Virus record (IMG/VR): IMGVR_UViG_3300014913_000005
Span: 1 to 34,241 of that record
Direction: 5' to 3' (one strand)
Length of the DNA stretch: 34,241 nucleotides
Source: a virus
Notes under the pieces: model-generated
The model's database searches: none
Told to the model about the DNA's origin: nothing
Seen by the model: only the letters and a program-made list of their open reading frames with translations
Part shown: piece by piece, positions 6,117 to 29,933 of the stretch
Numbering within the stretch: the stretch's first letter is position 1
How the letters are laid out: each line of letters starts with the position of its first letter
Position numbers and translations under genes: made by a program

Positions 6117-6716
6117 ATGATACTAGCTGACACTGTAGAATATAAATTTAGACGTCCGCTAAATCAGAAACAATCGCCTAGCTGTTCTACACACGCTTTT
6201 TTAGGTATGCTTGCTGAATTGGTGGAAAATAAAACAGGTGAGAATACAGACTTTGACTATCTAGGAGAGTTCGAATCAATGGAAGAGATGCGCAAAAATA
6301 AAAGGCGTCTTAGTTACCTACTCTCTAAAGGGAGTCAAGGATTTAAAACTCTAGATGATAGACTTGTTAAGGTTAAGGCCTATAAAAGAGCGGGTAAATA
6401 TTTTTCTGGAACTAAAACAGCTGAAAGAATATGTAGGGATCTACAATTAATAGGACCAATGCTCACAAAGATAAGGTTACACAAAAACACAAGCCTTACT
6501 AAATGCGGATTTAACAAAGTACTGAAAAAGATCTCTGGAGAATGGACAAGGAGCACGCACGCTATTGTTATAACAGGGTTTAATCTTAAGAGGGAGACAT
6601 TTATCATTCAGAATAGTTGGGGACTTAAGAAGTCATATAGAGAAATTAAGTGGAAAGATTTTGTAAAAATATTCCGAGAAGGGTATTTTATTAAAACAAT
6701 ATCAATAACTGATTAA
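6117..6716 (+). CDS. Papain-like (family C1) cysteine peptidase
   Basis: This 199-residue protein has the ordered active-site pattern of C1 peptidases. An oxyanion-hole Gln and the nucleophile Cys lie in NQKQSPSCSTHAF (Gln17 and Cys23, with the Ser-x-His-Ala-Phe continuation seen in bacterial members). The His lies in STHAIVITGF (His148) and the Asn in QNSWG (Asn166). The length is close to a bare catalytic domain, with no propeptide, signal peptide or membrane segment. It stands between the tail-tip genes and the amidase/holin pair. It could be a tail-borne enzyme, a lysis-associated enzyme or a processing protease; its substrate is unknown. C1 peptidases are unusual in this place, where CHAP or NlpC/P60 enzymes are more common. 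A half-size relative follows at 6765. Confidence 0.75.
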   Translation: MILADTVEYKFRRPLNQKQSPSCSTHAFLGMLAELVENKTGENTDFDYLGEFESMEEMRKNKRRLSYLLSKGSQGFKTLDDRLVKVKAYKRAGKYFSGTKTAERICRDLQLIGPMLTKIRLHKNTSLTKCGFNKVLKKISGEWTRSTHAIVITGFNLKRETFIIQNSWGLKKSYREIKWKDFVKIFREGYFIKTISITD

Positions 6717-6764: not shown

Positions 6765-7007
6765 ATGGGAGTAAGATGGGGCGGAATACTAACACATATC
6801 AAAAAGTATGTTAGGGACTGGAATAATAGAAACAATAACATGGCACATGGAATAGCTCTTACTGGGTTTGATAAAGAAAAGAAAGTCTTCTATTTGGCTA
6901 ATAGTTGGGGCGATGCTAAAAGCGAGAGAATGATTAGATTTGAAGACCTCTACAAGGTGTATGCAAATATCACATTTGTAGAAGGTGTTACAGTTTTTAA
7001 AAAATAA
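6765..7007 (+). CDS. C-terminal half of a second papain-like peptidase
   Basis: This 80-residue frame matches only the second half of the neighbouring C1 peptidase: His28 in NMAHGIALTGF and Asn46 in YLANSWGD, with the same 18-residue spacing. The region holding the Gln and catalytic Cys is absent. The same frame continues upstream only to a TGA at 6720-6722 and has no other ATG; an overlapping 31-codon frame starts at 6719. It is probably the remnant of a duplicated or exchanged peptidase gene, so peptidase activity is unlikely on its own. It might still bind or pair with the full-length protein. The start codon is uncertain because no ribosome binding site is visible. Confidence 0.55.
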   Translation: MGVRWGGILTHIKKYVRDWNNRNNNMAHGIALTGFDKEKKVFYLANSWGDAKSERMIRFEDLYKVYANITFVEGVTVFKK

Positions 7008-7017
7008 TTTTATCTAT

Positions 7018-7719
7018 ATGAAGAAAACAGCAATCAATATCCATCATACAGCACACTTTGCTAAAAATGATGTTGCGAAACAGCTAAACAGTGTAAATTC
7101 TGGACACAAGGCACGTTGGAACGCCTCAACACGGTCTAGCCTTGGATACTATGTTGGTTATCACTATCTAATAGAGAGAGATGGTGAAGTTGTACAATGT
7201 AGAAAAGATTCAGAGATAGGAGTTCATAATAACAAGGGGCTTGTATGGTCAACTCGTGGTCGGATTTCTGCTAATTACTATGCTATAGGGATTTCTTTTG
7301 CTGGGAATATGAGTAGGCAAGAGTTAACAAGTGCTCAAATTAAAAGTGCTGTAGAACTTATCGAAAGGCTACAAACTGAACACGACATAAAAGATGATCA
7401 AGTATTGCCACATAGGCATTATACACCAACTCAATGTCCCGGTAATAACCTACCAGACCCGTTATGGGCGTATTTAAAAGAGATGGCTAATAAGATGCAA
7501 AACGAACCACGATTAGATAGCCCTATAGTAGCTTGGTGTAAAAAGTGGGGTATTATTACTAAATGGAGTACTAAACCATCTGATAGCGAGTTAAAAGACG
7601 GTTACATTGCTTATAAGATTGGGTATCTAAATGCAACTAAGGCTAATAGGAAGAAAATATATACACTAGAAGAAATCAACAAAGGAATGGAAGAAGTAAT
7701 TAATAACTTAAACAAATAA
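7018..7719 (+). CDS. N-acetylmuramoyl-L-alanine amidase (endolysin)
   Basis: This 233-residue protein carries an Amidase_2 domain that cleaves the lactyl amide between N-acetylmuramic acid and L-Ala in peptidoglycan. The domain fills residues 1-150. It has the N-terminal NIHHT motif (His9 as zinc ligand), YHYLIERDG with the usual Tyr-His, GVHN, and the C-terminal LPHRHYTPTQCPG with His132 and Cys140 as the other zinc ligands. Residues 155-233 form a second part with Trp-rich and Lys-rich helices, a possible wall-binding or regulatory region that I do not recognise. The ATG at 7018 places the motif at the very N-terminus as in relatives; an earlier ATG at 6985 lies inside the upstream gene and is rejected. 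No signal peptide is present, so release should depend on the holin encoded three bases downstream. Confidence 0.9.
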   Translation: MKKTAINIHHTAHFAKNDVAKQLNSVNSGHKARWNASTRSSLGYYVGYHYLIERDGEVVQCRKDSEIGVHNNKGLVWSTRGRISANYYAIGISFAGNMSRQELTSAQIKSAVELIERLQTEHDIKDDQVLPHRHYTPTQCPGNNLPDPLWAYLKEMANKMQNEPRLDSPIVAWCKKWGIITKWSTKPSDSELKDGYIAYKIGYLNATKANRKKIYTLEEINKGMEEVINNLNK

Positions 7720-7721
7720 AC

Positions 7722-7967
7722 ATGGAAATTTTAGAAAATTTAGACGTGATCGCAGCGATCGGTGTAATGTCAACATTCTTGATACAAGCAATTAAAAAGA
7801 CATTCGGGAAAAAATACATCTCTTTGATCTCAAAGATTATCCCAACACTGATAGCTTTAACCATTGCTGTAATGGCAAACTATGGCCTTGAGGAAACAAT
7901 CCTAAACGCTGTAGCGCTTGGTGCTACCATCTATACTGCATCAGCGGGGTTGTACAAGTTGAAGTAA
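7722..7967 (+). CDS. Holin
   Basis: This 81-residue membrane protein follows the amidase by two bases. It has two hydrophobic segments, about residues 8-25 and 40-58, joined by a basic loop (KKTFGKKY), and then a third, weaker apolar stretch near 62-76. Size, topology and position fit a small phage holin that makes membrane holes to release the amidase. The short C-terminus ends in Lys residues, as is common for holins. It is the last gene before the long non-coding region. Confidence 0.8.
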   Translation: MEILENLDVIAAIGVMSTFLIQAIKKTFGKKYISLISKIIPTLIALTIAVMANYGLEETILNAVALGATIYTASAGLYKLK

Positions 7968-7969
7968 AA

Positions 7970-7998
7970 TTGACCCTAGGAAAGTAGTCATATATAAT
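7970..7998 (+). promoter_or_regulatory. Sigma70-type promoter for a small RNA
   Basis: TTGACC (7970-7975), a 17-base spacer and a perfect TATAAT (7993-7998) begin two bases after the holin stop. Transcription would start near 8005. An intrinsic terminator lies only about 60 bases downstream with no gene in between, so the unit looks like a dedicated small-RNA promoter. Confidence 0.7.
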
Positions 7999-8004
7999 CA
8001 GAGT

Positions 8005-8069
8005 ACTCACAAATATACTTTGTGATCTTACGACGACAAACAAACCATCACTTAGCTGGTGGTTTTTTT
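8005..8069 (+). ncRNA. Candidate small non-coding RNA of about 65 nt
   Basis: The segment is framed by a consensus promoter upstream and a terminator at its end. It holds a perfect 7-bp stem-loop, TCACAAA (8007-8013), loop TATAC, TTTGTGA (8019-8025), then a single-stranded stretch and the terminator hairpin. No reading frame of useful length is present. No known phage RNA family is recognised. Possible roles are antisense control, a packaging-type RNA or a decoy; none can be chosen from the sequence. Confidence 0.55.
8042..8069 (+). terminator. Intrinsic terminator after the small RNA and lysis genes
   Basis: AAACCATCA (8042-8050), six-base loop, TGGTGGTTT (8057-8065) form a 9-bp stem with one G-U pair. 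It ends in seven T residues (8063-8069). It would stop both the small RNA and any late transcription leaving the holin gene. Confidence 0.8.
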
Positions 8070-8110
8070 GTGCTACATGCCCACTACATGCAATTTGTGG
8101 CTAACATACA

Positions 8111-8136
8111 TCGTTTTCCAGACACCAGTAAAACGA
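8111..8136. other. Inverted repeat upstream of a 17-codon ORF
   Basis: TCGTTTT (8111-8117) and AAAACGA (8130-8136) form a perfect 7-bp inverted repeat with a 12-base centre. It ends five bases before an AGGAG sequence and the small ORF at 8149, so it could act as an operator or as an mRNA hairpin in that leader. Confidence 0.4.
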
Positions 8137-9393: not shown

Positions 9394-10815
9394 ATGAAAG
9401 ACAAGTTACCTAAAAATTTAAATCAAATAGTATATGAATATTTGTTACCAAAGAATGAGTATCTAATCACTGATGACATGGCGGTAATGTCAGTCTTAAT
9501 GCAGGCTAGTAGGTTCCTGTGTTGGAATCGTATTCCCGTACAGGGTCAGAGAGGATTAGAACCTTGCTCACTATATGCATTGAACTTTGCACCCTCTGGT
9601 GGTGGTAAAGATGTTTCGATAGATGATGTGGCTAATTTAAACACCAAGGCCTTTATTGAGATGGCTAGAGCTAAGAGAGGTGAGTATGATGCTAGAAAGC
9701 AAAAGCTTATTAATACTAGTCAGGACAAGGGTGTTAGGAAAATGAATGATAAACAGTTTAAGAAAGAACTGTGGTGGCACAATACTTATTCAGGTGGAAC
9801 AATCCAGGGGATGTATTTAGAGCGTGCAAAGATGTCAGAGTCAGACTTTGGCTCATTACATTTTGAGTCTAGTGAGTTTTTGGACAAGATGAAAAACAAG
9901 ACAGGTGATAACGTTCCAATCTTTACCTACATGAAAGAAGCCTACGCTAGTGGTAATACAAAGACCGATTCCATAATGGGAGAGATGAGGGATAACATCG
10001 ATGGTATCCCAATGACTATGTATCTACATGGTTCTAGTATGGGGTTAAAGGAGGATGGTGAACTCCTTAGTGGGTTCTTAAACATATTTGGTACAGGTAT
10101 AGCTAGAAGGTCTTTCTGTTTATTTTCTAATGAGAAGCACGCAAAAGAGTACACGGAGCAAGAGACTTTAGATATGATGTATCAATCAGAGAAAGGGTTT
10201 AAGGAGTCAGAGAAGATAATGTATAAATCTTTTGACGCAGTTTTTTATCAGGATAGTGGTTTGTTTATTGATGGTTATTCGAATATTTTTAGTAAGATGT
10301 TGATATATAAAAACAAATGTAAACGTAGATGGTCACAGATAAACAATGAGATATTAGCACCAGAGGTAAAGGATAGGTTTTGGAAAGCGTTAAGGTTAGC
10401 GGCATGTATTGCCCTAATAGAGCACCCTGAAAGTTTAAAGATAACAGAAGAAGATTATGACCTTGCTGAGTATCTATGTGAAAGGTGGGGGCAACAGTTT
10501 GAGGACTTCATTAAAAAGCAAATAGAGCACTCACACACGGTCTTGTATGAGTTTATAAAAAACTCTGATAGCGTCAATAAGACACAGATTAGAAGTGCAT
10601 TGAACTACGGCAATGACACAAGGAAGCTTAATGCAGACATTGAGACAGTGAAAGAGATGGCAATCGACAATAACATGGAGTTTACTGAGAAGAATGGAGA
10701 AAGAGGTAGGTCAGTTTATTATAGTTTAGTACCGTTACATCTAATAGACGTAGATGAATATAATAAAAACCAGAAAGGCCTTACTAGTGTAGATATAAGT
10801 AAAATAGATATTTGA
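9394..10815 (+). CDS. DUF3987-like replication ATPase / helicase-like protein
   Basis: This 473-residue protein has a Walker A-like loop, NFAPSGGGKD, at about residues 68-77, preceded by a Trp-rich N-terminal helix region. That arrangement resembles the DUF3987 (YfjI-like) phage and plasmid replication proteins, thought to be helicase-type ATPases. An acidic Walker B-like region may be LHFESSEF near 151-158. The C-terminal 110 residues look like a winged-helix DNA-binding part. It lies directly right of the iteron region, so it is the best candidate for the initiator or helicase loader. It ends with TGA, one of only two such stops in the window, with TAA two codons further on. No polymerase or primase motif is seen. 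Confidence 0.65.
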   Translation: MKDKLPKNLNQIVYEYLLPKNEYLITDDMAVMSVLMQASRFLCWNRIPVQGQRGLEPCSLYALNFAPSGGGKDVSIDDVANLNTKAFIEMARAKRGEYDARKQKLINTSQDKGVRKMNDKQFKKELWWHNTYSGGTIQGMYLERAKMSESDFGSLHFESSEFLDKMKNKTGDNVPIFTYMKEAYASGNTKTDSIMGEMRDNIDGIPMTMYLHGSSMGLKEDGELLSGFLNIFGTGIARRSFCLFSNEKHAKEYTEQETLDMMYQSEKGFKESEKIMYKSFDAVFYQDSGLFIDGYSNIFSKMLIYKNKCKRRWSQINNEILAPEVKDRFWKALRLAACIALIEHPESLKITEEDYDLAEYLCERWGQQFEDFIKKQIEHSHTVLYEFIKNSDSVNKTQIRSALNYGNDTRKLNADIETVKEMAIDNNMEFTEKNGERGRSVYYSLVPLHLIDVDEYNKNQKGLTSVDISKIDI

Positions 10816-10843: not shown

Positions 10844-10889
10844 AATGATTAGTTTTGGACATAAACCTTCAAAAAAAATTGATGTAGAG

Positions 10890-10911
10890 AAAGACCTTTC
10901 GGGGTCTTTTT
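10890..10911 (+). terminator. Intrinsic terminator after the replication ATPase gene
   Basis: AAAGACC (10890-10896), loop TTTCGG, GGTCTTT (10903-10909) form a perfect 7-bp stem ending in five T residues. It closes the ATPase transcript 20 bases before the first of the three shared early promoters. Confidence 0.8.
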
Positions 10912-10932
10912 CGTTTATAATGTGTTTTAGTA

Positions 10933-10961
10933 TTGACAATGTCATGACGGTAATATATACT
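10933..10961 (+). promoter_or_regulatory. Early promoter P1 with GTCATGAC operator
   Basis: TTGACA (10933-10938), 17-base spacer, TATACT (10956-10961). The spacer carries the perfect palindrome GTCATGAC (10941-10948). The start region AGAGATACATCAATTA is shared with two other promoters (12976 and 15416). It drives the small-gene operon 10994-12912. A protein bound to the palindrome would sit between the -35 and -10 boxes and block or alter polymerase binding. Confidence 0.85.
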
Positions 10962-10993
10962 AGAGATACATCAATTAAATAACAAACAAAACT

Positions 10994-11221
10994 ATGGAAT
11001 TCGGAACATTGTACAGATTAGGAAAGTATTGGTATATGGAAAGGCACGATGATTTGGTTATGATAACTTGTTATATGGACAATGATCCTATAGAGGTTGA
11101 CTTCAAGGTGACAGGCAAATCTATTTTGGATGCACACCAAAAATTGGTAAAAATATTAGATGAAAGGTTTGAAAAGGTAGTTAGTGCTAAAGACGGTTCT
11201 ATTTATAAGAAAGACAAATAA
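10994..11221 (+). CDS. Hypothetical early protein (75 aa)
   Basis: This is the first gene of the P1 operon, a 75-residue soluble, charged protein beginning MEFGTLYRLGKYWYMERHDD. Aromatic residues are frequent in the first 20 positions and the C-terminus is Lys-rich. No family or motif is recognised. As the first product of an early operon it is a candidate host-takeover protein, but this is only position-based. The start follows the A-rich leader shared by the P1 and P2 operons (AACAAAACTATG at P2, nearly the same here). Confidence 0.7.
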   Translation: MEFGTLYRLGKYWYMERHDDLVMITCYMDNDPIEVDFKVTGKSILDAHQKLVKILDERFEKVVSAKDGSIYKKDK

Positions 11222-11232
11222 CCACAAGTGTC

Positions 11233-11325
11233 ATGTATGATTCAAAGCTATTAAAAATATTGGACGTAATTTCAGTCATTATAGTATTAGCAGGGTTTGT
11301 ATTAGTAATTTATTTAAATATATAA
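11233..11325 (+). CDS. Tiny single-pass membrane protein (30 aa)
   Basis: A 30-codon frame starts 11 bases after the preceding gene. It begins MYDSKLLKILDVISV and continues as one apolar helix to the end (about residues 9-28), closing with YLNI. A short polar N-terminus and one helix predict a single-pass inner membrane peptide. Its tight place in the operon, 11 bases before the next gene, supports it. Similar in style to the 49- and 78-residue membrane proteins of the same operon. The function is unknown. Confidence 0.55.
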   Translation: MYDSKLLKILDVISVIIVLAGFVLVIYLNI

Positions 11326-11336
11326 CAAAAACAAAA

Positions 11337-11507
11337 ATGACAAATGAAGAACACAAGAAAGTAGTGAGGAAGTTAAACAACACCATGAAAGCGGTGGAAC
11401 ACAGGTTGAAGTTATCGCAGAATGATTATAGGAGAGCAAAGATAATTATAAAAGAATTAATTAAGGAGAACGAGGTGTTGAAAAAGCAAATATCATTTAA
11501 CGTATAA
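11337..11507 (+). CDS. Small coiled-coil protein (56 aa)
   Basis: A 56-codon frame gives a highly charged, all-helical product with Lys, Glu and Arg rich heptads, for example KVVRKLNNTMKAVEHRLKL, and ends QISFNV. It predicts a short dimeric coiled coil. It lies between two tiny membrane-protein genes with gaps of 11 and 4 bases. It may be a cytoplasmic partner of these. No family is recognised. Confidence 0.6.
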   Translation: MTNEEHKKVVRKLNNTMKAVEHRLKLSQNDYRRAKIIIKELIKENEVLKKQISFNV

Positions 11508-11511
11508 AACT

Positions 11512-11661
11512 ATGGAAGCATCAAGTGTATTAATAGCGATGGTGGGAGGTCTAGTACTGGCTGGGGTAGCGCATTACTTATTAACAAAGTTCAGTGATTA
11601 CTATTTCGTTATCATCTTCGGGTTATTCCTGTTGACGGTAATACCACATTTTATTAACTAG
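11512..11661 (+). CDS. Small two-helix membrane protein, holin-like (49 aa)
   Basis: The 49-residue product has two apolar helices, about residues 5-24 and 30-46, joined by a short basic/polar turn (LLTKFSDYY). This is the hairpin topology of the smallest holins and pinholins, but also of many unrelated phage membrane peptides. It ends with TAG and lies eight bases before a tiny Cys-rich protein gene. An exported lysozyme-like protein is encoded further down the same operon, which makes a second lysis-type role thinkable. The function is not shown. Confidence 0.55.
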   Translation: MEASSVLIAMVGGLVLAGVAHYLLTKFSDYYFVIIFGLFLLTVIPHFIN

Positions 11662-11668
11662 AAGTATT

Positions 11669-11779
11669 ATGGAGAAAACATCAAATTGTTGTGATGCAGA
11701 CGTATTGCAGCCAGACAGTAACGGACACGGTAAGTGTAGTGAATGTTTAGAAAACTGTACTAGTACGATAGAACAATAA
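11669..11779 (+). CDS. Tiny Cys/His-rich protein (36 aa)
   Basis: A 36-codon frame gives a product with Cys7-Cys8, His20, Cys23, Cys26 and Cys30 in the pattern GHGKCSECLENC. These residues could bind one zinc ion. It is acidic and small. It sits eight bases after the previous gene in the P1 operon. No family is recognised. The dense Cys/His spacing argues for a real folded peptide rather than a chance frame. Confidence 0.5.
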   Translation: MEKTSNCCDADVLQPDSNGHGKCSECLENCTSTIEQ

Positions 11780-11796
11780 TAATTAAAACCAAATCT

Positions 11797-12033
11797 ATGA
11801 TTAAGAAAGAATTAGAAAAGGAAATACAGGTAAACAGGTCGTTTATAGAAGCTTTGCAGACTCAGTATGTGGGTAATAGCAATGCTCTAATCAGTAAACT
11901 TGAATGTTATGAGAAGTTAAAGAAGTATGTAGATATACAGGGTGAGCATATCAATACGTTATATGTTTGGGTATATGGGTTGGTAGTGCTTCAAATATTA
12001 ACTGCGATAGGTACAATATTAATAGTCAAATAA
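11797..12033 (+). CDS. Coiled-coil protein with C-terminal membrane anchor (78 aa)
   Basis: This 78-residue protein has a charged helical N-terminal part (residues 1-52, starting MIKKELEKEIQVNRSF) and a C-terminal apolar helix (about 55-76, VWVYGLVVLQILTAIGTILI) ending in Lys. It should be tail-anchored with the coiled coil in the cytoplasm. It directly precedes the exported lysozyme-like gene by ten bases. It may form part of the same membrane assembly. No family is recognised. Confidence 0.65.
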   Translation: MIKKELEKEIQVNRSFIEALQTQYVGNSNALISKLECYEKLKKYVDIQGEHINTLYVWVYGLVVLQILTAIGTILIVK

Positions 12034-12043
12034 AAACAAAAGC

Positions 12044-12724
12044 ATGAAAACATCAACAATTAAAACTACAGTAATAGGACTAGTAACATTTATGGCGGGA
12101 CTAATGACCGTAGCATTCATTGCATCGGCTAGAGAAGTAATCCCCCTAGGGGCTATGGAGGACGACTATAATAAAACGTTACACGTAGTCAAAGAAACAG
12201 AGAAAAGCCTTAATACGGCAAAATATAGACACTGTTTAGCTGAAAAGGAACTAGCGAACGGTAAGATGCAAGCACATCTACAAAAACAGATCGTATTAGA
12301 TGATACGGACTTTAAAAGATTATCTAAAAAGATCTTTATGAACTGCTATGAGCCTGAACACCTTAAAGAAGAAAAGGTTAACGTAGAGGCAATGAATCAA
12401 GTTCCCGACACCGTGAAAAAGGAGGAGTTTAATTTGGATTGTTTAGCAGTTGGAGTGGCTACGGCTGAAACTGGGAACTTCACAAAAGGCTCTGGTGTAT
12501 CAAAGCTGAACGGCTTTGGCGTGATGTTTTGGCCTAACGGAGTTAGAACGTTAAAAACATACGCAACTAAACAAGAGTCTATAGATGATTTTAAAAGAAT
12601 ATGGTCAAAGTTCTATGGTGGATATCCAACTTATGCAATGGCAAAGAAGTGGACTGGAAATGATCACGTGGACTCGTGGCAGCTTAATGTAAAGCGTGCT
12701 TATAATGGATGTATTGGTAAATAA
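12044..12724 (+). CDS. Exported, membrane-anchored lysozyme-like protein
   Basis: This 226-residue protein has a signal or signal-anchor helix at residues 9-28, a helical linker to about 125, and a C-terminal domain (about 130-226) with lysozyme/transglycosylase-like features. The likely catalytic Glu142 is in ATAETGNFTKG, followed by GFGVMFWPNGVRTLKTY, DFKRIWSKFYGG and AKKWTGND. Four Cys lie at 64, 101, 133 and 223, possibly disulphide-bonded outside the membrane. Similar domains occur in extracellular cell-wall enzymes, and to my memory often in Patescibacteria. It is expressed from an early-type promoter, away from the amidase/holin pair. It could act in entry, exclusion of other phages or a second lysis route. 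The Glu assignment is inferred. Confidence 0.65.
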   Translation: MKTSTIKTTVIGLVTFMAGLMTVAFIASAREVIPLGAMEDDYNKTLHVVKETEKSLNTAKYRHCLAEKELANGKMQAHLQKQIVLDDTDFKRLSKKIFMNCYEPEHLKEEKVNVEAMNQVPDTVKKEEFNLDCLAVGVATAETGNFTKGSGVSKLNGFGVMFWPNGVRTLKTYATKQESIDDFKRIWSKFYGGYPTYAMAKKWTGNDHVDSWQLNVKRAYNGCIGK

Positions 12725-12729
12725 AAACT

Positions 12730-12912
12730 ATGACTGAACTAGAGCAAAGAAAGCAAGACATGGTGGTACAAAAGGCGGTATTAAGTACGCTAAACGAAGC
12801 ATGTGATTACATAAGAGAGGTTGGCTTGATTGGGCTTAGGCAAATGATGAATAGAGCCGAGGAGGATTATGAGATGGCAACTAGGATATATAATGAATTA
12901 CAGCCTAAATAA
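12730..12912 (+). CDS. Hypothetical helical protein (60 aa)
   Basis: This is the last gene of the P1 operon, six bases after the lysozyme-like gene. The product is 60 residues, helical and charged, beginning MTELEQRKQDMVVQKAVL, without membrane segment or paired Cys. No family is recognised. A terminator follows 25 bases after its stop. Confidence 0.6.
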   Translation: MTELEQRKQDMVVQKAVLSTLNEACDYIREVGLIGLRQMMNRAEEDYEMATRIYNELQPK

Positions 12913-12936
12913 AAAACATAATATTCAGATGTATAA

Positions 12937-12965
12937 GGCCTACTTACTCAGTAGGTCTTTTCTTA
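12937..12965 (+). terminator. Intrinsic terminator closing the P1 operon
   Basis: GGCCTACT (12937-12944), loop TACTC, AGTAGGTC (12950-12957) form an 8-bp stem with one G-U pair. It is followed by TTTTC and more T residues. Promoter P2 starts 20 bases downstream, the same terminator-promoter spacing as at P1. Confidence 0.75.
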
Positions 12966-12975
12966 TATAATAGTA

Positions 12976-13004
12976 TTGACAACGTCATGACACTGATATA
13001 ATAT
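12976..13004 (+). promoter_or_regulatory. Early promoter P2 with GTCATGAC operator
   Basis: TTGACA (12976-12981), 17-base spacer, TAATAT (12999-13004); a TATAAT also lies two bases to the left. GTCATGAC is at 12984-12991, in the same register to the -35 box as in P1 and P3. The leader beginning AGAGATACATCAATTA is shared too. It drives the small-gene operon 13036-15413. Confidence 0.85.
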
Positions 13005-15415: not shown

Positions 15416-15444
15416 TTGACAACGTCATGACGGCAATATACAAT
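15416..15444 (+). promoter_or_regulatory. Early promoter P3 with GTCATGAC operator
   Basis: TTGACA (15416-15421), 17-base spacer, TACAAT (15439-15444), with GTCATGAC at 15424-15431 and the shared AGAGACACATCAATTA start region. It drives the recombination and replication genes from 15473. Unlike P1 and P2, no terminator precedes it. Confidence 0.85.
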
Positions 15445-15472: not shown

Positions 15473-16195
15473 ATGGAAATTAAAACAACATCGGTAAAGG
15501 ATCATAAGATCAAAGCTGTAGTGTATGGTGCTTCTGGAGCTGGGAAGACAACATTCGGAGCTACTGCTCCCAAACCTATATTCGCAAGTGCAGAGGGTGG
15601 TTTACTTTCGATTGCAGAGCAGAAGATAGACTTTGTGAGTATTAAGTCGTTACAAGATTTAAGAGACCTGTATGACTATTTAAAAGATCAAAAGCATGAT
15701 TATGAATCAGTAGTGATTGATTCTATTACAGAGATCAATGAAGTTATAAAAAGGGGTATAGAGAGTAAGATAGGTGGTCAGATGAAAATACAGCACTGGG
15801 GTGAGTTGGCTAAGACTATTCAGAATATATTGACTATGTTCAGGAACCTTAATATGCATGTGATTATAATTGCACAAGAGGACAATGTGATTGATGAGGA
15901 TAAAATATCTAAGATTGTACCATCGTTAAATGGTAAGAGTGCTACAAAGATGGCTTATTTTATGGATATCGTAGCTTATTTAAAGATTAATAAAAATGGA
16001 GAAAGGGTTGTGTTGACTGAACCACATCAAAGATTATTGACTAAGGATAGAAGTAGACAGATTGGTAATGATAAGAAGCCTAACTTTACTGAGTGGGCTG
16101 AGCTAATTGCTAAAGGGTTGGAAGTAACTGAGGAGAAGGTAAAAAAGGTTGATACCTTAGATGTATCGCCACCAAAGTTTAAAGGTGAGAAGTGA
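15473..16195 (+). CDS. Sak4-like RecA-fold single-strand annealing ATPase
   Basis: This 240-residue ATPase resembles phage Sak4 (AAA_24-type) proteins, which act with SSB in homologous recombination and replication restart. Walker A is GASGAGKTTFG at about residues 19-29; the Walker B strand is SVVIDSIT near 79-86; a conserved Gln/Glu-containing strand is VIIIAQEDN near 129-137. Length fits the family. It is the first gene after P3, and SSB is encoded in the same unit at 17015. The gene ends with TGA, but the frame stays open for 20 more codons, through FQDWLCNGKST, to TAA at 16256-16258, and this extension reads like real protein. UGA read-through is therefore possible. Confidence 0.85.
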   Translation: MEIKTTSVKDHKIKAVVYGASGAGKTTFGATAPKPIFASAEGGLLSIAEQKIDFVSIKSLQDLRDLYDYLKDQKHDYESVVIDSITEINEVIKRGIESKIGGQMKIQHWGELAKTIQNILTMFRNLNMHVIIIAQEDNVIDEDKISKIVPSLNGKSATKMAYFMDIVAYLKINKNGERVVLTEPHQRLLTKDRSRQIGNDKKPNFTEWAELIAKGLEVTEEKVKKVDTLDVSPPKFKGEK

Positions 16196-26177: not shown

Positions 26178-29100
26178 ATGGGATTATCCGACACAATTAA
26201 ACATTTAAACGGGATAGGTGGAAAACATAAAGCTAAAGATATAAAAATTACTGATACAGGTGGTTTATATACGAGTGACAACGTTGAGGAAGCTTTACAA
26301 GAAATCGGGGATAAAAGTATGACTGATCCAATGACAACAAGAGGTGATGTTATTGTTCGTGATTCGAGTAATGCAACTGCTAGACTTGGAGTAGGTACAG
26401 ACGGACAAGTTCTTACTTCTGACGGTACAGATATTAGTTGGGAGGATTCTGTAGGGGGAGAAGCTTCAACTGGGGCAGTAGTAAAACCAACTATCACAGA
26501 TAATGGAGATGGCACTATTGATATAGGAACTAATGGTGTTGTTAATTATATGACTACTGCTGACGGTGTTAGTGGAGTAATAGAAAGAGTTAATGCAACA
26601 ACAGGTGTAACAGCTTTAGCATTGACTGATGGTGTTAATAATTATGTTTATTCTGATTATAATGCAGGTTCTCCAATTTATGCAGTAACAGTTAATTCAT
26701 CAGAATTTGGAGCAGATTATAGGAAAATACCTTTAGCTAAAATTTCAAAAGAAGGAAATGAACTGTATATGATGGAATATGATTCACAAGGTATTCTATT
26801 GGCAAATAAACACCTAATGAAAGACACGATCCTTAATGACCCACAAAGACAAGACGGTTTAACATTATCGACTTCTGCTACTAGAATTTCAACAATCAGT
26901 TCAGGTTCTGCTTGGTTCTCGGTCGAGAGATATTCTTTAGCTGAAAATGTTTCAGGAACTTCTGGGACACTTACAGAATGTTATTTAACTGCTGGTACTT
27001 GGAATAAAGCAGTAGTAACTTCATACGATTCAACTTATTATTCAGACGGTACAGATAGACAATCATTAGGGACAAACAAATATGTCGCTAAATATTTCTT
27101 TAGGGGTATTGGAGATGATAATGATGTTTATTATACTCATGGAGATACTTATAATTCAGAAGCTTCGGCTTTATCAGAAGCCGTGCCACCTACACCGTTT
27201 ATAATATCTTCTCATGCTTTGTATGTTGGTAAAATAGTAATAAAACAAGGTGAAACGAATGGTACAGCTTATCCTAGAGCTTGGGGAACATCAGTTGTAG
27301 GTTCTGCAGTACAAAATCACGACGATTTGGCTAATATCAACCAAGCAGGTACTGGTATTGCAAATGGTCATATTGATGACGGTGTACAAACTATTGCAGG
27401 TGTAAAAACCTTTAGCGATGGTATTGTTGGAGATATAACGGGAAATGCAGACACAGCAACAGCTTTAGAAACTGCTAGAAATATTGCAGGACAAAGTTTT
27501 AATGGTACAGCTGATATAGATATAGCATCTACTGATTTAACTGATACAGCTAATATAGCTAAACTAGATGCAGCTAATACATTTACAAATACAGGGGATA
27601 ATAGCTTTGCTGGTAATGTAGGAATAGGAACGACTAGTCCAGCAGAAAAACTAGATGTTATTGGGGATGCTCACTTTTCTGCGAATGGAAATAGTGGAGT
27701 AGAAATAAAAACAAATTCATCTAACACAGGTTTAATCACAGCACACAATCTATCTCCAGCAGACCCTGGTACAAGTACAATAAGCGAGGGTGCAAACTTT
27801 GGGTTTAATGGGGCACCCTCTAATTTTTTCGGAATGGGGTTAGGTGCAATTAGAAATGGCAAGTGTGATATTTGGTTTCAAACTGGAAATATCAATGGAG
27901 GCGGTTATAGATTTTATAAGGGTATAACTGAACTGGTTACAATATCGAAAGATGGTGATATAGGCATAGACGCACCAAATCCAATAGAAAAACTCGACAT
28001 TGACGGAAAAGCATCAAGTTCATTTATAAGAATGTGCAATAACAATACTGGGAGATTAGACAATGAGGGATTATATGTTGGTGTTGCAGGGACAACGGGA
28101 GAAGGATATATTGGAACAAGACATAATAAAGCATTACATTTTAGAACAAACCAAAAAGACGCTCTATTTATAGACATAAATCAGAATGTAGGTATGAACA
28201 CAACTACACCACAATTTTTATTAGATCTTGATAAGGATATACCTACTATTCTAAAAGCAGGAGATGATAAGCCTATATACCTAATGAGAGATTGTGCAGT
28301 AGGATTTAACGGTTATTATGATAATGGCTGGAAATATGGTAAAGGGTCTAGTAGTGATTATGCAGTATATACAGCAATCAACGCTGGTTTAGGTACATAT
28401 ACTATCGCAATTACAGAAAATGCTGGGGACGATGGAGACGAAGCAGTTTTTTCAGAGGTGGTAACAATTACTAAGGACAAAAATGTAGGTGTTGGAACAA
28501 CTAGTCCAGATACAAAACTACATATTCACGATGCAGAAAGTGATGCAACCATTACGCTATCTGGAGACGATGCAACTGCTGGTATAGGTAGAATTAATTT
28601 TACAGATACTACAAGTGGCTATACAACATTATTTAATGTTCTTGGCTCTAATAGGGCGGGTGATGACAGTAATCGATTGACGTTATGGACTACACCGAAT
28701 GGTTCAAATTATCATAAATATTTTACAGCACTAGAAAATACTGCAGAAGACAATAGTGCAGGTGATATGGCGTTTGCTGGGAAAATAGGTATAGGAACAG
28801 ATGCACCAACAACAGAACTTGAGGTTGTTGGTGATATAACAAGCGTTGGAACTAAATGGACTGCTAGAACAAGTGCTGCAAATAATGGTTGGTATGGTAT
28901 TGCATATGGTAACGGAATGTTTGTAACCACTAGTGATACTGGTACTGGTAACAGAGTTATGACCTCACCAGATGGTATCAACTGGACTTCAAGAACAAGT
29001 GCTGCAAATAATAATTGGAGTGGCGTTGCGTATGGTAATGGTCTTTTTGTGGCAGTTGCTTATACTGGTACTGGTAACAGAGTTATGACTTCACCAGATG

Positions 29101-29933
29101 GTATTAATTGGACTGCTAGGACAAGTGCTACAGATAATCGTTGGATTAGCATTACATATGGCAATGGAATGTTTGTGGCAGTTGCTTATAGTGGTACTGG
29201 TAACAGAGTTATGACCTCACCAGATGGTATCAACTGGACTTCAAGAACAAGTGCTGCAGATAATAATTGGATTAGCGTTACATATGGTAACGGTCTTTTT
29301 GTGGCAGTTGCTTATACTGGTACTGGTAATAGAGTTATGACCTCACCAGATGGTATTAATTGGACTGCTAGGACAAGTGCTACAGATAATCGTTGGCGTG
29401 GCGTTACATATGGTAACGGTCTTTTTGTAGCCGTTGCTTATACTGGTACTGGTAATAGAGTTATGACCTCACCAGATGGTATTAACTGGACTTCAAGAAC
29501 AAGTGCTGCAAATAATAATTGGAGTGGCGTTGCGTATGGTAATGGACTTTTTGTAGCCGTTGCTTATAGTGGTACTGGTAATAGAGTTATGACCTCACCA
29601 GATGGTATTAATTGGACTTCAAGAACAAGTGCTGCAAATAATAATTGGCGTGGCGTGGCGTATGGTAACGGAATGTTTGTAACCACTAGTGATACTGGTA
29701 CTGGTAACAGAGTTATGACCAGTGGTAAACAGCTTGTGAATGAACAATCCAATAAAATTGAACACGGCGAAAAGAGCTTCACTGGTAATGTAGGTATTGG
29801 AACAACTAGTCCTACTTCTAAACTACAAGTAACAGGATTACCTGAATACACAAACAATACAACAGCAACAGCAGGCGGTTTAACAGCTGGAGCTTTTTAT
29901 AGAACAGGAGATACACTAAAAGTCGTACATTAA
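26178..29933 (+). CDS. Large fiber protein in the head module (probable head fiber)
   Basis: This is the largest gene, 1251 residues. The N-terminus has GGLYTSDNVEEALQEIGDK, a segment common at the base of phage fibers. Middle and end carry six copies of a GxVGIGTTSPxxKLxV-like motif (near bases 27615, 27960, 28190, 28485, 28785 and 29790), as in trimeric fiber shafts. Between the fifth and sixth copy lie seven 42-residue repeats (28857-29722). It has no peptidase S74-type chaperone end; the C-terminus is short (GAFYRTGDTLKVVH). It lies between the major capsid protein and the head-tail connector, not in the tail block, so it may be a fiber on the capsid. Function in host or surface binding is inferred. 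Confidence 0.75.
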   Translation: MGLSDTIKHLNGIGGKHKAKDIKITDTGGLYTSDNVEEALQEIGDKSMTDPMTTRGDVIVRDSSNATARLGVGTDGQVLTSDGTDISWEDSVGGEASTGAVVKPTITDNGDGTIDIGTNGVVNYMTTADGVSGVIERVNATTGVTALALTDGVNNYVYSDYNAGSPIYAVTVNSSEFGADYRKIPLAKISKEGNELYMMEYDSQGILLANKHLMKDTILNDPQRQDGLTLSTSATRISTISSGSAWFSVERYSLAENVSGTSGTLTECYLTAGTWNKAVVTSYDSTYYSDGTDRQSLGTNKYVAKYFFRGIGDDNDVYYTHGDTYNSEASALSEAVPPTPFIISSHALYVGKIVIKQGETNGTAYPRAWGTSVVGSAVQNHDDLANINQAGTGIANGHIDDGVQTIAGVKTFSDGIVGDITGNADTATALETARNIAGQSFNGTADIDIASTDLTDTANIAKLDAANTFTNTGDNSFAGNVGIGTTSPAEKLDVIGDAHFSANGNSGVEIKTNSSNTGLITAHNLSPADPGTSTISEGANFGFNGAPSNFFGMGLGAIRNGKCDIWFQTGNINGGGYRFYKGITELVTISKDGDIGIDAPNPIEKLDIDGKASSSFIRMCNNNTGRLDNEGLYVGVAGTTGEGYIGTRHNKALHFRTNQKDALFIDINQNVGMNTTTPQFLLDLDKDIPTILKAGDDKPIYLMRDCAVGFNGYYDNGWKYGKGSSSDYAVYTAINAGLGTYTIAITENAGDDGDEAVFSEVVTITKDKNVGVGTTSPDTKLHIHDAESDATITLSGDDATAGIGRINFTDTTSGYTTLFNVLGSNRAGDDSNRLTLWTTPNGSNYHKYFTALENTAEDNSAGDMAFAGKIGIGTDAPTTELEVVGDITSVGTKWTARTSAANNGWYGIAYGNGMFVTTSDTGTGNRVMTSPDGINWTSRTSAANNNWSGVAYGNGLFVAVAYTGTGNRVMTSPDGINWTARTSATDNRWISITYGNGMFVAVAYSGTGNRVMTSPDGINWTSRTSAADNNWISVTYGNGLFVAVAYTGTGNRVMTSPDGINWTARTSATDNRWRGVTYGNGLFVAVAYTGTGNRVMTSPDGINWTSRTSAANNNWSGVAYGNGLFVAVAYSGTGNRVMTSPDGINWTSRTSAANNNWRGVAYGNGMFVTTSDTGTGNRVMTSGKQLVNEQSNKIEHGEKSFTGNVGIGTTSPTSKLQVTGLPEYTNNTTATAGGLTAGAFYRTGDTLKVVH
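28857..29722 (+). repeat. Seven tandem 126-bp repeats encoding a likely seven-bladed propeller
   Basis: Seven units of 42 codons follow each other without gaps; the last is cut after GNRVMTS. Each reads like WTSRTSAANNNWSGVAYGNG followed by LFVAVAYTGTGNRVMTSPDGIN. Units 1 and 7 share the variant MFVTTSDTG, while units 2-6 have FVAVAY. Seven units of about 42 residues match the blade size and number of a seven-bladed beta-propeller. High similarity at the DNA level makes recombination between units likely. Confidence 0.9.

Follow-up and report, generated by a model that had tools for sequence, protein, structure and literature searches.

A predicted exported, GH73-like wall enzyme in a probably early phage operon, with candidate −1 frameshifting among its relatives

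The closest described precedent for the gene considered here is Tgl of the kayviruses, a group of Staphylococcus phages. As described in PMC7150955, Tgl is made from an early promoter, carries a signal peptide ahead of a lysozyme-like domain with a glutamate, works beside a late partner endolysin, and requires the loss of the proton-motive force. The same source describes Lys44 of phage fOg44, an enzyme with a signal peptide whose activity awaits the loss of the membrane potential. A different early exported protein is Spackle of phage T4, a helical periplasmic protein whose mature form has 75 residues and a disulfide, and which acts as an inhibitor of the incoming tail lysozyme (PMC7677548). 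Phage tail-assembly genes use −1 frameshifts to make a short and a long product from a single start, and lysins are among the genes known to contain frameshifts (PRFect, PMC10885494). These systems are compared here with a gene for a 226-amino-acid (aa) protein in the virus record IMGVR_UViG_3300014913_000005, analysed as one stretch of 34,241 nucleotides (nt) and called the window below. The window is probably a complete phage genome because its ends repeat each other over 123 bases.

The reading proposed for this protein, which we hold at about even strength, is that of an early secreted, low-dose auxiliary lysis enzyme that would act through Glu142 and whose dose would be set by −1 frameshifting in about half of its relatives. 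The computed support consists of the fold, its conservation, the export signal, the frame arrangement at related loci, and the structure of the operon. From these we infer catalysis, signal-peptide cleavage, early timing, frameshift efficiency, and the role in lysis. The original prediction had suggested that the enzyme remodels the envelope, either for the exclusion of other phages or for keeping a fragile host association; as the closest precedent, Tgl speaks more for an auxiliary lysis enzyme. The comparison covers 14 distinct loci, namely the window, a match in the phage record MW202647.1, and 12 further IMG/VR loci. Locus L019 was excluded as identical to L018 over the compared stretch.

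The last ~95 residues of the protein form a domain that AlphaFold2 models with a predicted local distance difference test score (pLDDT) of 91.1 and a predicted template modelling score (pTM) of 0.83. Its best VIA-align match is LytB (7pj3; Z 9.6, root-mean-square deviation 2.6 over 97), followed by Ecd09610 of C. difficile (8yxk; Z 8.8) and a Thermotoga enzyme (Z 8.4), while lower matches include Auto, AtlA, and the enzyme domain of FlgJ. Nearly all rows with Z ≥5 are glucosaminidase-type enzymes, and the full-length model gives the same outcome. The Pfam profile Glucosaminidase (PF01832) matches 10 of the 14 members at E ≤1, with a best value of 5.7e-6. The family alignment holds 18 invariant columns. 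Glu142 is conserved in all 14 members and sits at the C-terminal end of a predicted helix, residues 131–143; the catalytic glutamate of GH73 is likewise found where the first domain helix ends (PMC4633669). A [YW]xGxD-like motif has an invariant Gly and an Asp in 13 of 14 members. Fold, glutamate position, and the weak Pfam match are the features in which the family resembles the GH73 glucosaminidases LytB, Auto, FlgJ, AtlA, and Ecd09610. On the predicted model, the domain is a divergent GH73-like wall hydrolase with Glu142 as the putative proton donor, and the lysozyme-like C-terminal domain around Glu142 that the original prediction named gains support from structure prediction, fold comparison, and conservation. 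In the homolog L012, a Peptidase_M23 domain above the Pfam cut-off adds a second wall-cutting fold to the same polypeptide. Profile searches of the relatives for Phage_lysozyme and SLT found 0 of 14 each, and sequence searches of the Protein Data Bank with the family and with single members brought up no noteworthy glucosaminidase.

Ahead of the domain lies a hydrophobic export signal (~residues 10–31) and then a helical segment with Cys64 and Cys101; the translation holds four cysteines in all, the others being Cys133 and Cys223. A helical segment with two cysteines spaced 24–37 residues apart is found in 9 of the 14 members. A signal-peptidase-like (AxA-like) site is present in 12 of 14 members versus 257 of 621 hydrophobic control open reading frames (ORFs), a modest difference (binomial ~1e-3), and in most members it is located after or at the end of the hydrophobic stretch. 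An exported and cleaved form is thus predicted to be more likely than an anchored one, and the permanent membrane anchoring assumed at first is not supported. Lys44, which shares a signal peptide with the window enzyme, differs from it in being the main lysin of its phage. We know of no frameshift in Lys44. Tgl is also a lysozyme-fold glutamate enzyme with an AXA-site signal peptide and a main endolysin besides, and, unlike the window enzyme, it resembles the SceD/IsaA transglycosylases (PMC7150955). The parts of that paper drawn on here describe neither a frameshift nor a two-Cys helical segment for Tgl.

The arrangement of reading frames sets the relatives apart. At 7 of the 14 loci (L009, L011, L013, L014, L015, L016, and L017), an upstream ORF bears the export signal and the helical segment and the domain follows in its −1 frame, with overlaps of 85, 25, 25, 13, 13, 10, and 16 nt, respectively. 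L018 is counted as ambiguous, outside the seven clear loci, because its domain frame has an ATG and a hydrophobic stretch of its own. No ATG, GTG, or TTG is found in the domain frame upstream of the domain at L013 and L016; the other five split loci have internal starts only, which lose the export signal and carry no Shine–Dalgarno motif. The slip-prone motif T-TTY (codons NNT and TTY, a Phe codon after T) occurs in six of the seven overlaps, directly before the 0-frame stop in four, and the seventh overlap has CCCAAAA. T-TTY is found in 5–24% of equal-length gene ends of the same contigs (p ~2e-5, for a motif picked after inspection). At L015, an H-type pseudoknot lies 5 nt downstream of the slip site, with 0 of 100 shuffles equally stable, and at L013 a 9-bp hairpin lies downstream of the slip site (z −4.3). 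Minimum free energy measured from the stop codon is near chance in most loci. At L013 through L017, the second cysteine precedes the 0-frame end by 1–9 residues, which would make the short product a whole unit that a disulfide can close. Because of the −1 frame, the short overlaps (10–25 nt in six), and the slip-prone codon, programmed −1 frameshifting probably produces the domain at the split loci. The frame arrangement alone is not rare, since the contigs hold 13 pairs of start-less overlapping frames in −1 and 9 in +1; the telling point is recurrence in one family, five of the 13 being the enzyme gene.

The split loci are like the tail-assembly frameshifts in that a single start would give both a short and a long product. 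Of the seven sites, six fit the PRFect motif classes five, twofive, twoonefour, and threethree, as judged by the class names alone; unlike the tail-assembly cases, the gene encodes an exported enzyme and lies in a non-structural region (PMC10885494). Literature searches of open-licence PMC papers found no frameshifted exported phage wall enzyme, and the review PMC5009743 names none in the parts drawn on here. The domain is fused in frame in the window, L003, L007, L008, L010, and L012, and a tree of the 14 domains mixes split and fused forms, with 5 changes and low support. The original prediction held that a wall enzyme made early would need control. That need fits the relatives, where a −1 frameshift is the only or the simplest route to the domain at half of the loci and would supply the dose control; in the window the gene is a single frame. 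A fuller version of this idea is tentative and falls somewhat short of an even chance. The frameshift would decide whether an early exported, disulfide-closed helical protein receives a wall-cutting domain, so that one gene yields, at a set ratio, much of a protein that acts on the envelope, perhaps in exclusion, and little of the enzyme, and giving the phage a muralytic effector long before lysis; in-frame fusions would have evolved repeatedly, in a family nearly absent from cultured phages.

A single-sequence search of viral contigs found no relatives of the window protein. The first relative was the 31% match in MW202647.1, and only after it was used as a starting point were the family alignments and further loci obtained. 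All 13 homologs are located in phage records, and the phage records covered are the window, G001–G011, G013, and W01 (n = 14). Two pattern scans of bacterial genome contigs gave 54 and 7 candidate stretches and no relative, and a plasmid scan gave none either. These scans require a near-exact motif, so the family size is a lower bound and absence from bacteria is not established.

The enzyme gene belongs to a set of eight genes at 10994–12912 that forms one transcription unit, bounded by the terminators listed in Table 1; terminator-like sites number 14 against 4.6 expected. The ORFs and hydropathy confirm the operon as first described, with small membrane proteins of 30, 49, and 78 aa, a coiled-coil protein, a Cys/His protein, and an enzyme with four cysteines. 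Scans of the window proteins against Pfam, PHROGs, NCBIfam, and PADLOC were uninformative on the small proteins and on the enzyme taken by itself. The operon promoter is a 25-base variant that occurs three times in the genome versus 0.01 expected, with a 17-base leader common to all three sites, and the pattern is not present near the amidase and holin genes at 6985–7967. Generic promoter matches in the region are not above chance (47 versus 53.1 expected). Because its promoter class is common to two other operons and absent near the amidase/holin pair, the enzyme operon is probably transcribed early. The operon of the original prediction stands as a separate unit with a shared promoter class, and its early timing is a probable reading of that class. 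Of the two outcomes that would have spoken against that prediction, a domain unlike lysozyme and expression only late with the holin, neither is indicated by these results. Tgl has its own host-type promoter, used early (PMC7150955), whereas early use of the window operon is judged from the promoter itself. The palindrome GTCATGAC lies in the spacers of the near-identical promoters at 10933, 12976, and 15416 and is a possible common operator.

Table 1. Positions of the enzyme operon, its promoter class, and the separate lysis genes in the window.
Feature	Position	Strand	Basis or remark
Endolysin gene, separate, Amidase_2 (7.1e-20)	6985–7719	+	Profile match
Holin gene, separate, phrog_1299 (3.7e-4)	7722–7967	+	Profile match
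Terminator-like hairpin, end of preceding (primase) operon	10887–10912	+	Hairpin scan
Promoter of enzyme operon, TTGACA-17-TATACT	10933–10961	+	Palindrome GTCATGAC inside spacer
Leader AGAGATACATCAATTAA of enzyme operon	10962–10978	+	17 bases, common to three promoters
75 aa protein	10994–11221	+	No family match in library scans
30 aa protein	11233–11325	+	One membrane segment (hydropathy scan)
56 aa protein, charged, coiled-coil-like	11337–11507	+	Judged by inspection
49 aa protein	11512–11661	+	Two membrane segments (hydropathy scan)
36 aa Cys/His protein	11669–11779	+	Homolog in sister phage G001, 71% over 31 aa
78 aa protein	11797–12033	+	One membrane segment, C-terminal (hydropathy scan)
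226 aa predicted exported wall enzyme	12044–12724	+	Export signal, helical segment, GH73-like domain
GH73-like domain, residues 130–223	12431–12712	+	Predicted structure, family alignment
Glu142 codon	12467–12469	+	Invariant; C-terminal end of first domain helix; putative proton donor
60 aa protein, helical-looking	12730–12912	+	No family match in library scans
Terminator-like hairpin, end of enzyme operon	12935–12959	+	Hairpin scan
Sibling promoter, same 25-base variant, next operon	12976–13004	+	Pattern match
Sibling promoter upstream of AAA_24 ATPase gene (15473–16195)	15416–15444	+	Pattern match

Lysis genes stand apart from the enzyme operon. The separate late amidase/holin pair of the original prediction is recovered by profile matches, and homologs of both the lysin (45% over 77 aa) and the holin of the window are found in the sister phage G001. 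There the gene order is lysin, holin, primase, small membrane genes, enzyme, Cys/His protein, terminase, and capsid, which places the enzyme gene distant from the lysis pair. Amidase_2 is found in 4 of 15 records and Peptidase_M15_4 in 2 of 14; with the G001 homolog, 7 of the 14 phages have a separate lysin. Tiny membrane proteins are encoded in the window operon and near the enzyme in several relatives, in no fixed position, and genes for helix-turn-helix (HTH) proteins adjoin the enzyme gene in L015, L016, and L018. An integrase is present in 1 of 15 records only, so temperate life is not general.

The hosts are addressed by the translation signals of the phages. A Shine–Dalgarno signal is absent in the 14 phages (27 of 496 ORFs versus 23.8 expected), which suggests that the hosts do without it. 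Promoters of the TTGACA/TATAAT type look unlike those of Bacteroidetes. The Bacteroidetes are one lineage that does not use Shine–Dalgarno (PMC10783764). Patescibacteria, also considered as hosts, are neither favoured nor disfavoured; the parts of PMC10746230 and PMC12911398 drawn on here hold nothing on wall enzymes.

Other observations were made around the enzyme genes and elsewhere in the window. Tandem-repeat arrays that are open in several frames lie upstream of the exported gene at L014 (9277–9505) and L015 (10–972). Directly upstream of the frameshift gene at L017 is a Band_7/SPFH (prohibitin-like) membrane protein (7320–8135; E 3.7e-36), and directly 3′ of the exported enzyme gene at L003 is a 93 aa protein with a signal-peptide-like start (9658–9939). 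Beside the lysis genes of the window, the adjoining ORFs at 6117–6716 and 6765–7007 resemble parts of papain-like C1 peptidases, the first by Peptidase_C1 (E 0.0017) and the second by inspection. A probable tail-fibre protein of 1251 aa is encoded at 26178–29933, with several GNRVMTSPDGINWT-type units repeated near its C-terminus.

Taken together with Tgl, these features suggest the following course of events. The operon would be transcribed, probably early, from the promoter class of two other operons, and a low dose of enzyme would accumulate. Host signal peptidase probably cuts off the N-terminal hydrophobic stretch, which would leave outside the membrane the helical segment with its cysteine pair and the small GH73-like (glucosaminidase-fold) domain, where Glu142 may serve as proton donor. 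In about half of the relatives, most ribosomes would end after the exported helical protein, and a minority would slip at the T-TTY-type site and add the enzyme. The enzyme may nick or prime peptidoglycan without killing the cell; when holin action abolishes the membrane potential, it would then aid the late amidase.

The main rival to auxiliary lysis is superinfection exclusion or envelope protection, which is nonetheless unlikely. An exported two-Cys helical protein would keep incoming phages out by blocking their entry machinery or wall enzyme, the domain would tether it to or trim peptidoglycan, and, at loci where frameshifting holds back the long form, the short form would predominate. 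Like Spackle, the short frameshift product is predicted to be exported, small, helical, and equipped with two cysteines, a likeness by description (PMC7677548). At the seven clear loci it spans 61–98 residues past the hydrophobic core, which is Spackle-sized, and holds the cysteine pair in six; the likeness is one of size and make-up (no homology was seen, though no search was aimed at it), and Spackle, unlike the window enzyme, is an inhibitor without an enzyme domain (PMC7677548). The HTH genes beside three of the enzyme genes make an early or immunity-like setting, but the PADLOC scan yields nothing. The putative catalytic glutamate is invariant in 14 of 14 members, more than a protein that only blocks or tethers would require, so cutting appears to matter. 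Quite improbable is an uncleaved, membrane-tethered signal-arrest-release lysin, for which the tiny membrane proteins would be holin or antiholin of a second lysis cassette. The single N-terminal hydrophobic segment ahead of the catalytic domain and the tiny membrane proteins in the window operon and near several related enzymes would suit it, but the position of those proteins varies among relatives, the AxA-like sites fall at or after the hydrophobic stretch in most members, and the window and G001 already have a holin/lysin pair. The enzyme might instead make a local opening in the wall for a structure that spans the envelope, with the tiny membrane proteins and the short helical product as its building blocks, and this we regard as very unlikely. 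FlgJ would be the model, a scaffold fused to a GH73 domain that serves the flagellar rod; its enzyme domain is among the structural matches, and scaffold in excess of the fused enzyme would suit frameshifting, but no component is recognised and the neighbouring genes differ among relatives. It is more improbable still that the split genes reflect decay or assembly errors, with only the in-frame forms real and the same function exerted without frameshift control. Single-base indels could produce the split picture and six loci, the window included, are in frame; however, the seven contigs agree in direction (−1) and place, with the short overlaps noted above in six of them, the invariant domain residues are intact at the split loci, and stimulator-like RNA structures are found at two.

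Several results weigh against an auxiliary lysis enzyme controlled by frameshifting. Foldseek has no match at E ≤0.001, its best being LytB at 5.9e-3 (probability 1.00), and hhalign of the family versus E. coli FlgJ failed to match. None of the 14 records reaches the curated cut-off of Pfam Glucosaminidase (30.2 bits; best 26.5 bits), and the YATD tetrad of canonical GH73 is absent as such, with the [YW]xGxD-like motif in its place. Because of this cut-off and tetrad the domain, which is also only ~95 residues long, is not called a GH73 member. The signal-peptide test is weak in that 41% of the control hydrophobic ORFs pass too. The RNA downstream shows no notable structure at L009, L014, and L016 and weak signals at L011 and L017, and the window gene needs no frameshift. 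Searches for Amidase_2, Phage_lysozyme, SLT, and Peptidase_M15_4 found no separate lysin in 7 of the 14 phages, so among the families tried the GH73-like enzyme could be the sole lysin there. Finally, Tgl maps within a few genes of the lysis gene of its phage (PMC7150955), unlike the window enzyme gene.

A wall enzyme made well ahead of lysis is puzzling, since it endangers the cell that the phage still needs. If the auxiliary lysis enzyme proposed here is real, dose control by ribosomal slippage, which is known mainly from tail-assembly genes, would answer this puzzle, and the slip sites at L013 and L015 are short and well defined. An unannotated early operon of uncultured phages would then be linked to a clear biochemical prediction.

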